Source: a virus
IMG/VR virus record: IMGVR_UViG_3300009537_000115
Location: 1-30,336 of that record
Direction: 5' to 3' (one strand)
DNA length: 30,336 nucleotides
Shown here: positions 6,431 to 28,196 of the stretch, piece after piece
Layout of the letters: every line of letters starts with the position of its first letter
Numbering within the stretch: the stretch's first letter is position 1
Position numbers and translations under genes: made by a program
The notes under the pieces: model-generated
What the model was told of the DNA's origin: nothing
The model's input: the letters and a program-made list of their open reading frames with translations, nothing else
Databases searched by the model: none

Positions 6431-7723
6431 TTAGAAGTTAAAGTACGGCTTAATGTATTTATCAAAGAGTCCTCCGAAGAACGATCCCCCTGCGGTACTC
6501 TGCGCTTTCTTGCCGGTCGGGATCGGGTTCTTGCCCAGGCCCACCCATTGCGGTTGCGGCTGATAGGAAATTGATTGATTCAATTGTGGGAAGAGATCGG
6601 CGGCACTCACTGGTTGCTGGAATTCTCCACCGCTAAAGGCTTGCTGAGCCGATGATGGGCCGTAGAGACTAGAGTAATCATAGCCACCACCACCTCCGCC
6701 ACCTCCACCTCCACCTCCTCCACCACCACCGGTCGCTTGACCGTAGAGATAGGGGAACAGGAAGCCGGCGGATTCTTGCCCATAGGTCCCAGGGTCGCCT
6801 GGCATCAGCCCAAGCCTGGCCCAATCCATTGGGGACCCTTGGAAGCCCAGATTAAACTGACGCTGGCCTTCGCCAAACTGCGCATAGTCGAGCCCTAACG
6901 ATTGGGCGAATTGCTGCGCTTGCTGCGCTTGCGCGTCGCGTTCCAAATCGAACCCTTGCTGCTGGAAGTAGGATTGAATGTCTTGGCCTCGGAGGCCCTG
7001 CGCGAGGCCGGCGAGCTGGAATTGCTGCTGGGCATACTGGGCTTCAATATCCGTTTCCGCCCCGAGTCGTTGCGCATCCAAGTTCTGCAACGCATTCACT
7101 TTCTGTTGCTGCGTCAGGAACCGGTTGTCCATAATATTTCTGACCGAATCTTGATACCCAATCTCAAACTCTTGGAGCTTCCTGGCCCGTTCGGCGAGGA
7201 GGTCTTGTTCGGCCTGGGCAAAGCCCACCGCTTGTTTGGTTTGCGTTTCCGCCGAGGCGGAGGATTCCAGAATTCCGCTTCTCGCGAGTTGGGCTTTCAG
7301 CGCATCCGTGCGCTCATCATACGTCCCTCGCGCTTCACGGAGCGCGCGTTCGTAGGGACTGCCGATATTCTCTCTCGCGAGCGGGGCTTCCGCTTCGTAC
7401 TTCTGGAGTTGCCGGTCCAGCGCCCGTTGGAGGCCTTCGTAGTAGGTATCAATGTTGCCTTTCCCTGCGCCATACTGCGCTTGCAACGCTTGCTGACTCA
7501 AGTCACGGAAGTCATTCCCCACCTGGCCTTGGAGCGCCTGATAGTAACTATTAAAGTCGCCTGGCTTCGTCGTGCCATACGAGGACGAGTAGGAAGAGGA
7601 GGACGGTCCCTGGTAGGAGGATGGCCCCTGAGAGGAGGGGCTCCCTCCAGAGGGGAGGTCTTTCCAGATCCCTGCGACGGAATCGTAGTAGCCTGGTTTG
7701 AAGGTGGGATTTTGACTGGGCAT
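6431..7723 (-). CDS. Coiled-coil internal virion-like protein with poly-glycine tract (430 aa)
   Basis: Residues ~25-60 are Ser/Tyr/Gly-rich. Residues ~60-290 form a long Gln/Ala/Glu-rich helical region with repeated QAQ/QQ runs (for example AQAQQAQQFAQSLGLDYAQF), a typical coiled coil. An uninterrupted run of 16 glycines follows at nt 6683-6730, then a Tyr/Ser/Gln-rich segment and a C-terminus ending in aromatic residues (YIKPYFNF). Gln/Ala-rich helical proteins upstream of a large ejection protein are typical internal-core proteins of podoviruses, so I infer that role. AACC lies 9-10 nt before the ATG in place of an SD sequence. Confidence 0.55.
   Translation of the reverse strand: MPSQNPTFKPGYYDSVAGIWKDLPSGGSPSSQGPSSYQGPSSSSYSSSYGTTKPGDFNSYYQALQGQVGNDFRDLSQQALQAQYGAGKGNIDTYYEGLQRALDRQLQKYEAEAPLARENIGSPYERALREARGTYDERTDALKAQLARSGILESSASAETQTKQAVGFAQAEQDLLAERARKLQEFEIGYQDSVRNIMDNRFLTQQQKVNALQNLDAQRLGAETDIEAQYAQQQFQLAGLAQGLRGQDIQSYFQQQGFDLERDAQAQQAQQFAQSLGLDYAQFGEGQRQFNLGFQGSPMDWARLGLMPGDPGTYGQESAGFLFPYLYGQATGGGGGGGGGGGGGGGGYDYSSLYGPSSAQQAFSGGEFQQPVSAADLFPQLNQSISYQPQPQWVGLGKNPIPTGKKAQSTAGGSFFGGLFDKYIKPYFNF
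6683..6730 (-). repeat. Poly-Gly codon tract (16 x GGN)
   Basis: Sixteen consecutive glycine codons mixing GGT, GGA and GGC make a low-complexity trinucleotide tract within the 430-aa protein. It is likely a flexible linker and may vary in length between relatives. The mixed codons argue against a simple slippage artefact. Confidence 0.9.
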
Positions 7724-7748: not shown

Positions 7749-8537
7749 TCAGCCCCAACAGATATATTGAAAATTGACTGCATGATTAATGGTTCCCCAA
7801 TTGATCGTAAAGCCGTCCGCATCGAGACTCGTGAGTGTGGCCAAAATCCCATCGGTGCCATCTTCTTCCTGAATCAAGACCAGATAGGTCCCGTCATTCT
7901 CTCCGGCGACCAAATGATGTTCTGATCCCGTGTCACGGCCCACCGCTTCGATGGCCTGTTCGGTCGTGGTCGAGGTCGCCCCGCCGACCGAGATCCCATA
8001 ACAGCCTGGCGCGGTGGAGGAATTGGCAATGGCAATGACTTTAATGAGCGACGGCGTAAACCCGACTCCCGTGATGGCCTGGTCACCGGTCGAGGTGGCG
8101 GCTCGTGTACTGTTCCCGACAAAGATCTCGTGCTGATGATCGGACCGAGCCGCCACCGTATCGTCGCCCTGGTTCGAGGCTGCATTCCCTGCGCTCGCCC
8201 CTGCCGTCACCAGGTTCGGTTTGGTCGCAAACTGGGTATCGGTATAACTTTCCAGATTCGCTTTCAAATCCTCCAGCAGCGTGGCCGTCATCTCTTGAGA
8301 CACGGTCACCCCATCCGCATGACTCACCGCCGTGGTCCCGCCTTGGGCTCTGGTCACGGTCAAGTCATTACTACTAATGCCGGAGACATACACAATCTCC
8401 ACACTATTGAGTGTGAGATAGGTATTGACGGTTAAGCCCGTCGCGTCCGTTACCGAGATGGTGGTTGCCCCAGCACCGATCCCCCCGTCCAGCGTGGTCG
8501 AGAAGAGGGTCGTGGGTTGTCCAAACGTATTAGCCAT
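7749..8537 (-). CDS. Fibre / receptor-binding-like protein, paralogue 3 (262 aa)
   Basis: Third of three tandem paralogues. N-terminal residues ~1-90 hold the shared module (MANTFGQPTTLFSTTLDGGI, later NSVEIVYVSGIS and TVTRAQGGTTAVSHADGVTV). A helical linker follows (TLLEDLKANLESYTDTQFATKP), then a variable 'SRSDHQHEIFVG' hinge, and a C-terminal beta domain with GVGFTPSLIKVIAIA and SLDADGFTINWGTINHAVNF, ending in YICWG. The layout is that of short fibre-like or adhesin proteins with a conserved attachment end. It overlaps the upstream paralogue by 8 nt. A receptor-binding role is inferred from architecture and position after the tail plug. Confidence 0.65.
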   Translation of the reverse strand: MANTFGQPTTLFSTTLDGGIGAGATTISVTDATGLTVNTYLTLNSVEIVYVSGISSNDLTVTRAQGGTTAVSHADGVTVSQEMTATLLEDLKANLESYTDTQFATKPNLVTAGASAGNAASNQGDDTVAARSDHQHEIFVGNSTRAATSTGDQAITGVGFTPSLIKVIAIANSSTAPGCYGISVGGATSTTTEQAIEAVGRDTGSEHHLVAGENDGTYLVLIQEEDGTDGILATLTSLDADGFTINWGTINHAVNFQYICWG

Positions 8538-9330
8538 AACAGATATACATAAAGGTACAGGTATGATTGATATACACCCAATTCACCGTAAACCCATCAG
8601 CATCGAGCGAGATAAGATCGGTTTCCACCCCGTCCGTCCCATCCTCTTCTTCGATATAGACAATTCGATTGCCCTTCGTTAAGGCACGCACTTCATGTTC
8701 GGCACCAGAATCAAAGCTGCAGAGAGCTTTACTAAAGCGATTGGAGGACGAGGTCCCTGATCCGTGGCTGATCCCATGACAGCCTGGCGCGGTCGCGGAG
8801 CCGACAACCGCGTAGATCATCACCATCTGTGGCGCAAACCCCACGCCCGTAATGGCTTGGTTGCCCGTGCCTTGGGCGGCGGTTCTCGTGGTTCGTGCCA
8901 CAAAGACCGGATGGGTGTGATCGGAACGAGACGCATCGGTCGCCGTCCCATTATTAGCGGCGGCCAGGCCATCGGTCCCCGCGGCCACGAGCGCGGGCTT
9001 CGTGGCCAGCGCGGTATCTTCGTAGGCTTCCAGATTCGCCTTCAGATCATCCAAGACACTGCTGACCAGCGGTTGGGTGATCGCCACCCCATCGGCATGC
9101 GCTTTCCCGCTCGTGTCTCCGATCCCCCGCGTGATCGTAAGCACAAGGCCGTTAATATTCGTGACATAGACGATCTCTTTATTCGCCCCCGAGGTCGGCT
9201 CAATCACTAAATACGTATTCACGACGAGACTGCCCACACTGGCCACCGTCATCGTGGTCGCCGCCGCGGTGATCGCGCCGTTCAAGGTGGTCGAAAACAG
9301 ATCAATCGGTTGTCCGTAGGTATTCGCCAT
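8530..9330 (-). CDS. Fibre / receptor-binding-like protein, paralogue 2 (266 aa)
   Basis: Middle copy of the triplet, with the same module order: MANTYGQPIDLFSTTLNGAI start, NKEIVYVTNINGLVLTITRG strand pair, helix VLDDLKANLEAYEDTALATK, SRSDHTHPVFVA hinge, then the C-terminal domain with GVGFAPQMVMIYAVV and SLDADGFTVNWVYINHTCTF ending in YICYG. It is closest to paralogue 3: both share APGCYGIS/APGCHGIS and EEDGTDG motifs that paralogue 1 lacks, which suggests the most recent duplication was 2/3. The stop overlaps the next start by 8 nt. Assignment as fibre or receptor-binding protein is inference. Confidence 0.65.
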   Translation of the reverse strand: MANTYGQPIDLFSTTLNGAITAAATTMTVASVGSLVVNTYLVIEPTSGANKEIVYVTNINGLVLTITRGIGDTSGKAHADGVAITQPLVSSVLDDLKANLEAYEDTALATKPALVAAGTDGLAAANNGTATDASRSDHTHPVFVARTTRTAAQGTGNQAITGVGFAPQMVMIYAVVGSATAPGCHGISHGSGTSSSNRFSKALCSFDSGAEHEVRALTKGNRIVYIEEEDGTDGVETDLISLDADGFTVNWVYINHTCTFMYICYG

Positions 9331-9340
9331 ACACTAAATC

Positions 9341-10153
9341 TTATCCAAGCGCGGTGTAATGCACCGTGGTATCTTGGGTCATCGTACTCCAATTGATGGT
9401 AAAGCCATCGGCATCCATCGAGACGAGAGTTGCTTGAGCCACAACGGTATCAGACACATTTATCCCGACAATAATATATCCAGGGCCAAAATCAGCCTTC
9501 AGGCGGTATTCGCTACTCCCTTGGTCATAGTTATGGAGATACATACACTCCCCCGTGGCCGCCGTCGCGGCACCAAGACTCACAAAATTAAGAAACGGGC
9601 TAATCGCTTCGCCATAATTGGCTTCAAACAGAATCAGCGTCGGTGTAAATCCCACCCCTGTCACGGCTTGGTTACCGGCCCCAGCCGCCGCCGTTCTCGT
9701 AAAGCTCCCCACTTTAAAGTGATGAATGTGGTCGGACCTGGAGGCACTAGTGGCCGTGCCTGGATTCCCGTCACTGGCCGGATTGCCCGCCGTCCCTGCC
9801 GTGGCTAGACTCGGGAGCGTCGCCACACTCGTATCTACATTCGCTTCGAGATTCGCTTTCAAGTCCTCAATGGTTTCGGCCACCACTGACCCCACGATCT
9901 TGTCCCCACTACTATGCGCCACGGCGGTGGTCCCGCCTTGGGCTCGCGTGACGGTCACCGATTTCGCGGACGTATTCACGGCGGTCACATAGACGACTTC
10001 TCGATTCGTGGTATCGCTGGGATCAATCGTCAGATAGGTATTCGCGGCCATGCGACTCGGATCGGCCACAAAGAGATTGGTGGCACTGGCGGTAACGTCA
10101 GCGGTTAAGGTCGTCGTAATGAAGTCGCCTGGGAGGCCGTAGGTATTCGCCAT
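9341..10153 (-). CDS. Fibre / receptor-binding-like protein, paralogue 1 (270 aa)
   Basis: First copy of the triplet, starting MANTYGLPGDFITTTLTADV immediately after the tail-plug gene, with start and stop adjacent. It has the same N-terminal module (NREVVYVTAVN, TVTRAQGGTTAVAHSSGD), linker helix (TIEDLKANLEANVDTSVATL), SRSDHIHHFKVG hinge and C-terminal domain (GVGFTPTLILFEA, SMDADGFTINWSTMTQDTTV, ending VHYTALG). The C-terminal core is the most divergent of the three and lacks the APGC and EEDGTDG motifs. Function as an attachment or receptor-binding fibre is inferred. Confidence 0.65.
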   Translation of the reverse strand: MANTYGLPGDFITTTLTADVTASATNLFVADPSRMAANTYLTIDPSDTTNREVVYVTAVNTSAKSVTVTRAQGGTTAVAHSSGDKIVGSVVAETIEDLKANLEANVDTSVATLPSLATAGTAGNPASDGNPGTATSASRSDHIHHFKVGSFTRTAAAGAGNQAVTGVGFTPTLILFEANYGEAISPFLNFVSLGAATAATGECMYLHNYDQGSSEYRLKADFGPGYIIVGINVSDTVVAQATLVSMDADGFTINWSTMTQDTTVHYTALG

Positions 10154-26337: not shown

Positions 26338-26389
26338 AGAACCGCTAACTTAAGGGGGGCTACGGGACTTAGCGGTTCTGGCCCCCCTT
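26338..26389 (+). promoter_or_regulatory. Two interlocked inverted repeats in the initiator leader
   Basis: Stem 1 pairs AGAACCGCTAA (26338-26348) with TTAGCGGTTCT (26369-26379), 11 perfect bp. Stem 2 pairs AAGGGGGGC (26352-26360, inside the loop of stem 1) with GCCCCCCTT (26381-26389), 9 perfect bp. The arms interlock in pseudoknot order. The 1-nt link between the two 3' arms makes both full stems together unlikely, so they are probably alternatives. Stem 2 is followed by TTTGTT and ends 4 nt before the ATG at 26394. It could therefore act as a terminator or block ribosome access. A third element, CCCCC at 26325-26329, could also pair with the G-run. Confidence 0.65.
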
Positions 26390-26393
26390 TGTT

Positions 26394-27122
26394 ATGCAAG
26401 ATGGCTATATCAAACTCCATCGCAAATCGCTGACCAGCTCAGCCTTCAAGAACCCAGCCACCTGGATGGTCTGGTCCTGGTGTTTACTGAAAGCGTGTCA
26501 CGAAGAGCAACAGTTCCCGTGGAATGGCTCAGACATCACCCTGAAGCCAGGCCAGTTTATCACGGGACATCACAAGGCCTTACAAGAACTACCCACTCTC
26601 ACACTTCAGACCCTCAGAACAGCCTGGGGGTACCTAAAATCAACAAACAGAATAACAATCAAATCAACGAATAGATTTAGCATCGTAACGGTCTTAAACT
26701 GGAAAGAGTACCAAGTACCAAACAAGCCTACTAACAAACCACTAACAAACCAGCAACAAACCACTAACAAACCACTAACAACATACAAGAATGATAAGAA
26801 GGTAAAGAATGATAAGAAAGAGATACCTAAAGGTATCAGTCGATCCAAGATCGACGAGGTTGTCTCCTGGTATGAAGCATGCTTTGACACCACGCTTCGA
26901 AGTCTCAGTAAAACTCGGAAGGCCAAGCTCCACGCTCGACTCACCACCTTTTCCATATCAGACATCAAGCAGGCCATTACCAATTTTTCCGCGGCGCCGT
27001 TTTACCGCGGCGAGAACGACCGTGGGTGGTGCGCTGACCTGGATTTTATCATTCGCTCGGATGAACAGATCGAGAAAGGGCTCAATCTCAAACCGCATTC
27101 CAATGTGCTACATATTACCTAA
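26394..27122 (+). CDS. DnaD-like phage replication initiator (242 aa)
   Basis: The N-terminal ~105 residues are a winged-helix replisome-organiser domain: MQDGYIKLHRKSLTSSAFKN, WMVWSWCLLKACHEEQQFPW, ITLKPGQFITGHHKALQELP, TLRTAWGYLKSTNRITIKST and FSIVTVLNWKEYQ. This is a well-known pattern of phage primosome initiators. A Lys/Asn/Thr/Gln linker follows (~106-140), encoded by the iteron region. The C-terminal domain ~145-235 (SRSKIDEVVSWYEACFDTTL, ITNFSAAPFYRGENDRGWCA, DLDFIIRSDEQIEKGL) matches the conserved C-terminal segment of these proteins, which recruits replication partners. It is the first gene of the plus-strand unit. No helicase or primase is visible in the window. Confidence 0.72.
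   Translation: MQDGYIKLHRKSLTSSAFKNPATWMVWSWCLLKACHEEQQFPWNGSDITLKPGQFITGHHKALQELPTLTLQTLRTAWGYLKSTNRITIKSTNRFSIVTVLNWKEYQVPNKPTNKPLTNQQQTTNKPLTTYKNDKKVKNDKKEIPKGISRSKIDEVVSWYEACFDTTLRSLSKTRKAKLHARLTTFSISDIKQAITNFSAAPFYRGENDRGWCADLDFIIRSDEQIEKGLNLKPHSNVLHIT
26730..26784 (+). repeat. Five tandem 11-bp iterons (candidate replication origin)
   Basis: Contiguous 11-bp units based on ACTAACAAACC occupy 26730-26740, 26741-26751, 26752-26762 (AGCAACAAACC), 26763-26773 and 26774-26784 (ACTAACAACAT). Three are identical. The unit is not a multiple of 3, so the repeat is not a codon-repeat artefact. An 11-bp period places sites on one face of the helix, like initiator-binding iterons. It lies inside the initiator's linker. 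Confidence 0.75.
26787..26818 (+). repeat. A-rich 14-bp direct repeat beside the iterons
   Basis: AAGAATGATAAGAA occurs at 26787-26800 and 26805-26818, with an 18-bp period, directly after the iterons. The strand is nearly all A and G. It is a good candidate DNA-unwinding element; it also encodes the duplicated KNDKK in the protein. Confidence 0.65.
26822..26854. repeat. Two adjacent short inverted repeats next to the A-rich element
   Basis: GATACCT-AA-AGGTATC (26822-26837) and TCGATC-CAA-GATCGA (26840-26854) are perfect inverted repeats separated by 2 bp. They complete a cluster of iterons, A-rich repeat and dyads that resembles a phage origin. Confidence 0.55.
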
Positions 27123-27538: not shown

Positions 27539-27715
27539 ATGTCCCTGCCACTCGAAGCCCAAGGCACCCGTGAAGATTTCGCGGAACATATCCAGTGGGC
27601 GGACTCCCTTGAGGAGTTACAAGATGTCTCCAAGAAGTTCTGGTCATGGATCGAAGCCGATCCGGAGCTCGAACAGTTGCTGCACCGCAAGCTGGATGAC
27701 TTGATGCGCACATGA
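27539..27715 (+). CDS. Small acidic helical protein (58 aa)
   Basis: ATG 27539 (MSLPLEAQGTREDFAEHIQW) follows the promoter at 27481 and the leader TAACCCC-N8-ATG. The rest (ADSLEELQDVSKKFWSWIEA, DPELEQLLHRKLDDLMRT) is a likely two- or three-helix bundle. It ends in an ATGA overlap with the next gene, so it heads a coupled set of five small genes. No family recognised. Confidence 0.6.
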   Translation: MSLPLEAQGTREDFAEHIQWADSLEELQDVSKKFWSWIEADPELEQLLHRKLDDLMRT

Positions 27716-27972
27716 AAACCTGTCCAAAGTGCCAGACGGAGAAGAGCCTTACAAGCTTTCACCGCAGGAGGGCGGCCAAAGATGGACGGCAAAGTTGGTG
27801 TAAAGACTGTTGCCTGGCTTACGATAACCTCCGCCTCGTCACCCCCAAACGGTCTCTAAGCGTTCGGACGGCCACGGTCCACGAGTCCATCGAATGGGTC
27901 GCCTGTCCGACGTGTCAGGCCCCGTGGAAGTTCCACACCCTCACCGATACAACCTTACACCATCCCCTATGA
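27712..27972 (+). CDS. Zinc-finger protein of HNH-associated type (86 aa)
   Basis: The start MKTCPKCQTEKSLTSFHRRR, then AAKDGRQSWCKDC, is the zinc ribbon (C4-x2-C7 ... C30-x2-C33) typical of the N-terminus of HNH endonucleases and their stand-alone relatives. Here it is followed by a second knuckle, C65-x2-C68 (VACPTCQAPW), and no H-N-H catalytic histidines, so nuclease activity is unlikely. Both ends are ATGA overlaps with neighbours. Likely a nucleic-acid-binding accessory protein. Confidence 0.6.
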   Translation: MKTCPKCQTEKSLTSFHRRRAAKDGRQSWCKDCCLAYDNLRLVTPKRSLSVRTATVHESIEWVACPTCQAPWKFHTLTDTTLHHPL

Positions 27973-28196
27973 GCCAAGCCCAACGTCTCCTCAAATTGCT
28001 CCGAGACGGGAAGCCGCACTCGACCCTAGAGATCCTCGACACCGTGTACGGATCAGCCCACCTTGGCCTGGCCCGCGTGGGGGCCAGGGTCTATGATCTG
28101 AAACAGCAAGGCTACCATATCCGTTCCTTTCGCGACCCACGAAACAAAGCCGTGTGGTGGTACCAACTCTTGACCCAACTAACCCTGTTCTCATGA
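27969..28196 (+). CDS. Small winged-helix DNA-binding-like protein (75 aa)
   Basis: ATG 27969 forms an ATGA overlap with the previous stop, which rules out the longer upstream frame. MSQAQRLLKLLRDGKPHSTL, EILDTVYGSAHLGLARVGAR and VYDLKQQGYHIRSFRDPRNK read as a winged helix: helix 1, a recognition helix near residues 33-46, then a beta wing with RDP..KAVWWY. This pattern is common in tiny phage DNA-binding proteins. It may regulate its own cluster. Confidence 0.6.
   Translation: MSQAQRLLKLLRDGKPHSTLEILDTVYGSAHLGLARVGARVYDLKQQGYHIRSFRDPRNKAVWWYQLLTQLTLFS

Follow-up and report, generated by a model that had tools for sequence, protein, structure and literature searches.

The window, the whole stretch of DNA that was analyzed, is the 30,336-bp linear virus contig IMGVR_UViG_3300009537_000115 (46% A+T). 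Pfam and PHROGs searches showed that its leftward genes are packaging and structural genes, including those for a terminase, a P22/SU10-type portal, and an SU10-type capsid protein. The gene at 26394-27122 (+ strand) is the first of the rightward region. It encodes a putative initiator of 242 amino acids, delineated by its open reading frame, PHROGs matches, and an AlphaFold2 model, which consists of a winged-helix domain, a disordered linker, and a helical C-terminal domain. No helicase or helicase-loader gene was recognized in this linear 30,336-bp record, which may be incomplete. When the initiator protein alone was used as the query against viral and genome contigs, no relatives were obtained, and searches with the window terminase and capsid proteins returned distant phage relatives only.

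Several other features of the record were observed along the way. Directly 5' of the initiator ATG, at 26338-26388, lie two interleaved inverted repeats (GAACCGCTAA...TTAGCGGTTC and AAGGGGGGC...GCCCCCCTT) that could form an H-type pseudoknot or two mutually exclusive hairpins; this segment had no Rfam match, and its nested fold gave a z of -1.8. Farther into the rightward region, two open reading frames, 27712-27972 (endonuclease VII/Lar-like) and 27894-28196 (winged-helix, HTH_39), overlap by 79 nt in different frames. Among the structural genes, three successive leftward genes of about 265 amino acids each (7749-8537, 8530-9330, and 9341-10153) look similar, share the N terminus MANT[FY]G, and are probably tandem paralogues. 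Finally, about 15 glycine codons in a row (a CCA/CCT-type repeat on the + strand) were found at 6684-6730, within a leftward 430-amino-acid open reading frame (6431-7723).

A first-pass annotation, made from the sequence alone, had called the initiator DnaD-like. Residues 1 to 143 did match phrog_2514 ("DnaD-like helicase loader"; E = 2e-29), and residues 2 to 223 matched phrog_345 ("replication initiation O-like"; E = 1e-14). However, a Pfam search of the protein returned no family at an E value of ≤0.1, the DnaD/DnaB_2 and RepA_N domains both being without a match, so that the label stands as a PHROGs family name and is otherwise a loose one. The AlphaFold2 model, built with a 61-row alignment, placed a winged helix-turn-helix DNA-binding domain in codons 1 to 107 (26394-26714, +), with pLDDT block means of 88 to 98 across residues 11 to 100. 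In this model, the recognition helix spans residues 71 to 83 (codons at 26604-26642, +), and the wing is a hairpin of residues 87 to 100 with strands at 87 to 91 and 96 to 100. The linker, from about residue 121 to residue 143, was modeled with very low confidence and is predicted to be disordered. It is followed by a helical C-terminal domain (codons 150 to 227, 26841-27074, +; model helices 150 to 227) that resembles the C-terminal parts of phrog_10469 and phrog_16167 and is presumed to recruit the helicase or its loader. The best PDB fold neighbors of the DNA-binding domain included the N-terminal domains of plasmid initiators (4pql, Z = 9.0; 4pt7, Z = 8.8; 5kbj, Z = 8.4), with rmsd values of 5.0 to 5.7 Å, and CRP-type winged helices tied with them. 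A PDB sequence search with the same domain gave no match at a useful E value.

The linker-coding part of the gene carries a repeat array. Tandem Repeats Finder reported AACAAACCACT, with a period of 11 and 5.5 copies, at 26721-26781, and its score of 92 was the highest of all arrays in the 30,336-bp record. The first-pass annotation had described five 11-bp tandem iterons at this place; these are present at 26732-26786, the fifth being degenerate, and a further degenerate copy precedes them at 26721. On the + strand, the register thus runs from degenerate iteron 0 (AACAAGCCTAC, 26721-26731, also covered by Tandem Repeats Finder) through iterons 1 (TAACAAACCAC, 26732-26742), 2 (TAACAAACCAG, 26743-26753), 3 (CAACAAACCAC, 26754-26764), and 4 (TAACAAACCAC again, 26765-26775), all four of which were supported by register and matrix scan, to degenerate iteron 5 (TAACAACATAC, 26776-26786, placed by register), where the array joins an A-rich tract. 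When the array's own matrix was run over both strands of the whole record, the four good iterons were the four best matches. Consecutive iterons 0 to 5 occupy reading frames 0, 2, 1, 0, 2, and 1. The period-11 match was attained in none of 2,000 synonymous-codon shuffles that preserved the protein, and none of 1,000 shuffles of codon order attained the match at any period from 7 to 30.

The adjoining tract (26787-26819, +), delimited by composition and stability, is A-rich and 9-bp periodic (AAGAATGAT AAGAAGGTA AAGAATGAT AAGAAA). The segment 26787-26820 is 74% A+T, versus 46% for the record, and among 45-bp places in the record, that at 26787 ranks third for low stability. Within the periodic tract, a perfect 14-bp repeat (AAGAATGATAAGAA) occurs at 26787-26800 and 26805-26818 with a spacing of 18, exactly as the A-rich direct repeat had first been described. 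From its composition and stability, the tract is a probable DNA unwinding element.

Two inverted repeats that had also been counted as part of the origin, GATACC-TAAA-GGTATC (26822-26837) and GTCGATC-CAA-GATCGAC (26839-26855), neither assigned to a strand, are both present, and nowhere else in the record do two such repeats lie side by side. Taken singly, inverted repeats of this size abound there (110 rows with arms of at least 6). In relatives, inverted repeats were hardly enriched (20 of 71, versus 13.4 expected); they are not a conserved feature of the family, their role is doubtful, and they were dropped as a component of the origin. Cumulative GC skew, which had been proposed as a check, showed neither a turn nor a minimum at 26.8 kb in this record, the curve falling on both sides of the array, and was likewise dropped as support for an origin.

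Conservation of the array was first assessed in 12 phage initiators that are 22 to 32% identical to the window initiator overall and 28 to 41% identical over the domain and linker. They came from phages of Staphylococcus, Enterococcus, Listeria, Bacillus, Vibrio, Shewanella, Pseudoalteromonas, and Pseudomonas, together with gut phages. An 11-bp array of different sequence was found at the same place in the linker in 11 of these 12 genes, mostly followed by a 9-bp array (for example, AAGAATGNN or AATAATGNN), and array/tract junctions like that of the window (ACAAC...AAGAATG) recurred in relatives. The wider sample consisted of some 590 loci from seven viral-contig scans and one genome-contig scan, and the representatives of the first set were 75% clusters. 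The match spectrum of codons 100 to 140 in 94 first-set representatives had peaks at 11, 22, and 33 nt; the match at 11 nt fell from an observed 0.471 to 0.380 after protein-preserving shuffles, and the synonymous-shuffle test gave a P value of <0.05 for 76 of the 94 genes. At a fixed score threshold, strong 11-bp arrays occurred in 66 of 97 initiator genes versus none of 357 flanking 700-bp pieces.

Across both sets, which together comprised 165 divergent initiator genes, 11-bp-family arrays with differing repeat sequences occupied the same place in the linker of 142; 9 carried a 12-bp linker array, and no linker array was detected in 11. Hence, the period and position of the iterons are kept in relatives while their sequence varies. 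The first-pass annotation had held that relatives retaining the linker and losing the 11-bp periodicity would speak against an origin, and the reverse was found: the repeat sequence changes, taking the linker amino acids with it, and the 11-bp period stays in its place. In GC-richer relatives, moreover, the A+T fraction climbs to 0.72 directly after the array, compared to a gene mean of 0.57. Among individual relatives, 12-bp linker repeats replace the 11-bp repeats in loci L142, L252, and L256, and in L256, 12-bp repeats are also present upstream of the linker. Two database records carry questionable labels. Dulem virus 31 (PP511318.1, locus L012), which is 35.8 kb long and carries genes for a replisome organizer and an exonuclease, is recorded under Microviridae, a placement that fits neither its size nor its genes, and phage vB_LmoS_C996 (MZ361826.1, locus L008), which bears a Listeria-type name, has Hydrogenophilus thermoluteolus as its recorded host, probably a labeling error.

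In approximately 110 relatives, the iterons were found to change in step with a single predicted DNA-reading amino acid, residue 72 (Gln72 in the window, codon at 26607-26609), which predicts the iteron class. In 71 genes whose iterons could be placed in register, the alignment column of Gln72 stood out by the mutual information that it shared with the bases preceding the iteron's core C (z = 10.2), and the value rose to z = 17.9 when both sets were combined. Gln occurred with AAC, Arg with GAC, and Lys with GGC, Ser being mixed; the window, with Gln72 and TAACAAACCAC, fits this rule. These pairings are in line with common protein-DNA contacts, in which adenine is read by Gln and guanine by Arg or Lys. 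An independent second set comprised 46 representatives, each <75% identical to every first-set protein. The trinucleotide class, by which the first-set table became a rule and which was applied to both sets at once, was correct in the second set for Lys with GGC (5/5), Arg with GAC (8/8), and Gln with AAC (23/28), and AAC was present as well in the remaining five Gln iterons. A motif-based class, set after the second-set output had been seen, was correct for 38 of 41 genes (permutation mean, 19.9; maximum in 20,000 permutations, 29). The two classes agree in outcome.

Disjoint closest pairs of genes that differed at residue 72 differed in iteron class in 33 of 33 cases, compared to 8 of 47 closest pairs sharing the same residue, and the residue 72 rule was still correct in 44 of 48 cases at <60% identity outside the helix. 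In leave-one-out prediction, residue 72 reached 0.87, versus 0.69 for the next best column and a baseline of 0.64. Tree-based independent pairs, restricted to supported branches, numbered 3 to 4, too few for significance alone, and none was contrary. Wing residues 93 and 94 were linked more weakly with the distal end of the iteron (position 9, z = 7.3). Some 120 bp separate the residue 72 codon from the array downstream of it, so shared nucleotides cannot account for the covariation. Together with the synonymous-shuffle tests, covariation with a recognition-helix residue encoded that far away bears out the earlier suggestion that the array is under selection at the DNA level, and because the iterons change with residue 72, the protein and its origin apparently evolve together, as a single unit.

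Iteron-like sequence was not confined to the linker. In relatives, the segment 48 to 93 bp before the array, which encodes the wing, matched the iteron of its own gene far better than the iterons of other genes (mean Z = 1.38; permutation standard deviation = 0.106). The segment adjoining the array also scored (0.82), and segments farther upstream and all segments downstream were near 0. In the first set, the wing segment was above the synonymous null mean in 64 of 65 genes, with a P value of <0.05 in 30; in the second set (Z = 1.40), it was above that mean in all 43 genes, with a P value of <0.05 in 16. The corresponding DNA of the window (26637-26693, +), coding for the last residues of the recognition helix and for the wing, is the fourth least stable place in the record and contains iteron-like sites at a 12-bp spacing, at 26640 (TCAACAAACAG), 26652 (ATAACAATCAA), and 26664 (TCAACGAATAG). 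These sites are weak, the best ranking 50th in the record by matrix scan, and were therefore listed as degenerate; despite the strong signal in the family, they were not counted as good copies of the iteron.

From these sequence comparisons, the segment at approximately 26721-26819 is very probably a phage replication origin that lies inside its own initiator gene, with iterons that would be bound by the winged-helix domain encoded by that gene. The candidate origin put forward by the first-pass annotation is thereby supported, and replication would presumably start at this place. In the mechanism that we propose by analogy with lambda O, the Stx phages, SPP1, and the origin proposed for 80alpha, the iterons would be bound by the winged-helix domain; with a length of 11 bp, roughly one helical turn, consecutive iterons would lie on one face of the DNA, and the binding of several copies might strain the adjoining A-rich, 9-bp-periodic tract until it opens. 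The C-terminal domain would then bring in the helicase or helicase loader. Gln72, located where the recognition helix begins, may read the AA before the iteron core C; in relatives, GA is found with Arg and GG with Lys at this residue.

Autoregulation is known for some initiators, for example, plasmid Rep proteins. We therefore considered the possibility that the array is an autoregulatory operator through which the initiator blocks transcription of its own or downstream genes, the true origin lying elsewhere. All of the evidence that points to binding by the initiator suits an operator equally well. However, the sites are deep inside the coding region rather than at the start of the gene, they abut an unstable A+T-rich tract in the window as well as in GC-richer relatives, which an operator does not need, and known phages with such a layout use it as an origin (PMC6316719, PMC7466680). 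An operator in place of an origin is thus unlikely, and the two roles are in any case compatible with each other. Even less probable is a reading in which a host protein such as DnaA, and not the phage initiator, binds the array, or in which the array functions in partition or packaging, because a host factor would not explain why, among close relatives, the iteron changes with the recognition-helix residue of the same gene (the 33 of 33 pairs described above). The linker is predicted to be disordered and its amino acids carry part of the periodicity (synonymous null of 0.38 at 11 nt, versus about 0.32 at most other periods), but the notion that the repeats have no function at the DNA level and arose through replication slippage or from a low-complexity Thr/Asn/Lys/Gln linker has very little left to recommend it, given that the period, 11, does not coincide with the codons and is found in phages of several phyla, that synonymous codon choice is biased toward keeping it, that the repeat covaries with a distant DNA-binding residue, and that matches to a gene's own iteron recur in wing-coding DNA and are absent from other parts of the gene.

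Returning to the origin, we also found indications that its parts travel together. Among the matches listed, those of the window protein ended at residues 121 to 131 in all 60 phage relatives, and the C-terminal parts match different families, the C-terminal two-thirds of lambda O matching the C-terminal part of phrog_2514. With matches ending in the linker and C-terminal families that differ, the binding domain, iterons, and A-rich tract look like one exchangeable module. In the case of lambda O (locus L607), the match of its C-terminal part to that of phrog_2514 had an E value of 3e-37, and the window domain matches the N-terminal part of the same family, which suggests that domains have been exchanged close to the iteron linker. 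On the comparative evidence, we consider it likely, with somewhat less assurance than for the window origin itself, that members of this initiator family, in phages of several bacterial phyla, carry the origin in their own gene, that residue 72, in the first turn of the recognition helix, forms a code in which Gln, Arg, and Lys correspond to AA, GA, and GG before the core C, that extra cognate sites lie in the wing-coding DNA, and that initiator and origin form a self-contained, coevolving unit. The specificity of such a unit would be legible from sequence, and the unit could be combined as a module with different C-terminal domains.

Origins inside initiator genes have been described for SPP1 (PMC6316719) and for lambda and Stx phages (PMC7466680) and proposed for 80alpha (PMC5499656). 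The likeness to lambda O that had been noted at first holds for the layout, since iterons and an A+T-rich tract lie within the initiator coding sequence of the window, as they do in the middle of lambda gene O and its Stx phage variants (PMC7466680; NC_001416 annotation). Both proteins match phrog_345, and the fold of the window domain resembles that of a phage "O protein" (TM = 0.88 by target, 83 columns). In contrast, lambda (NC_001416) has four annotated 18-bp sites spaced 20 to 24 bp apart, whereas the sites of the window family are contiguous and 11 bp long, and hhalign, with which the profiles of lambda O and this family were compared directly, gave no match (probability of 0.1). In SPP1, which was compared by its published description rather than by sequence, gene 38/oriL likewise has direct repeats and an AT-rich unwinding element inside the initiator gene, and gp38 binds there (PMC6316719); unlike the window, SPP1 has a second origin, oriR, elsewhere.

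ORF20 of staphylococcal phage 80alpha is also an initiator gene with an annotated putative rep_origin inside, and ORFs 20 and 21 together are enough for replication to proceed autonomously (PMC5499656). However, ORF20 belongs to phrog_428 and has 30-bp and 15-bp repeats, and the window initiator belongs to another family with 11-bp repeats. The initiators of RepA_N plasmids and PLE satellites are, through their N-terminal domains, among the best PDB fold neighbors of the window domain, tied with CRP-type winged helices. RepA_N proteins bind iterons, which are mostly semipalindromic around a poly-A tract (PMC7145576) and so differ from those of the window, whose initiator lacks a Pfam RepA_N match. 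A literature search found no report of the residue 72 code, of 11-bp linker iterons, or of wing-coded sites, which is weak evidence of absence as most subscription journals were outside its scope. The 11-bp architecture and the one-residue code thus look new, and the idea of an origin in an initiator gene is old.

If this interpretation is correct, the origin of a widespread initiator family would be locatable from sequence alone; to our knowledge, the origins of most phages are unknown. Protein-DNA specificity would, moreover, be predictable from one residue, with more than 100 natural initiator-origin pairs available for testing. The interpretation also offers a reason for the repetitive linkers of "DnaD-like" proteins, in that the linker amino acids would follow from the iterons and not the reverse. 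The family would also be a clean system for studying joint changes in the specificity of an initiator and its origin.
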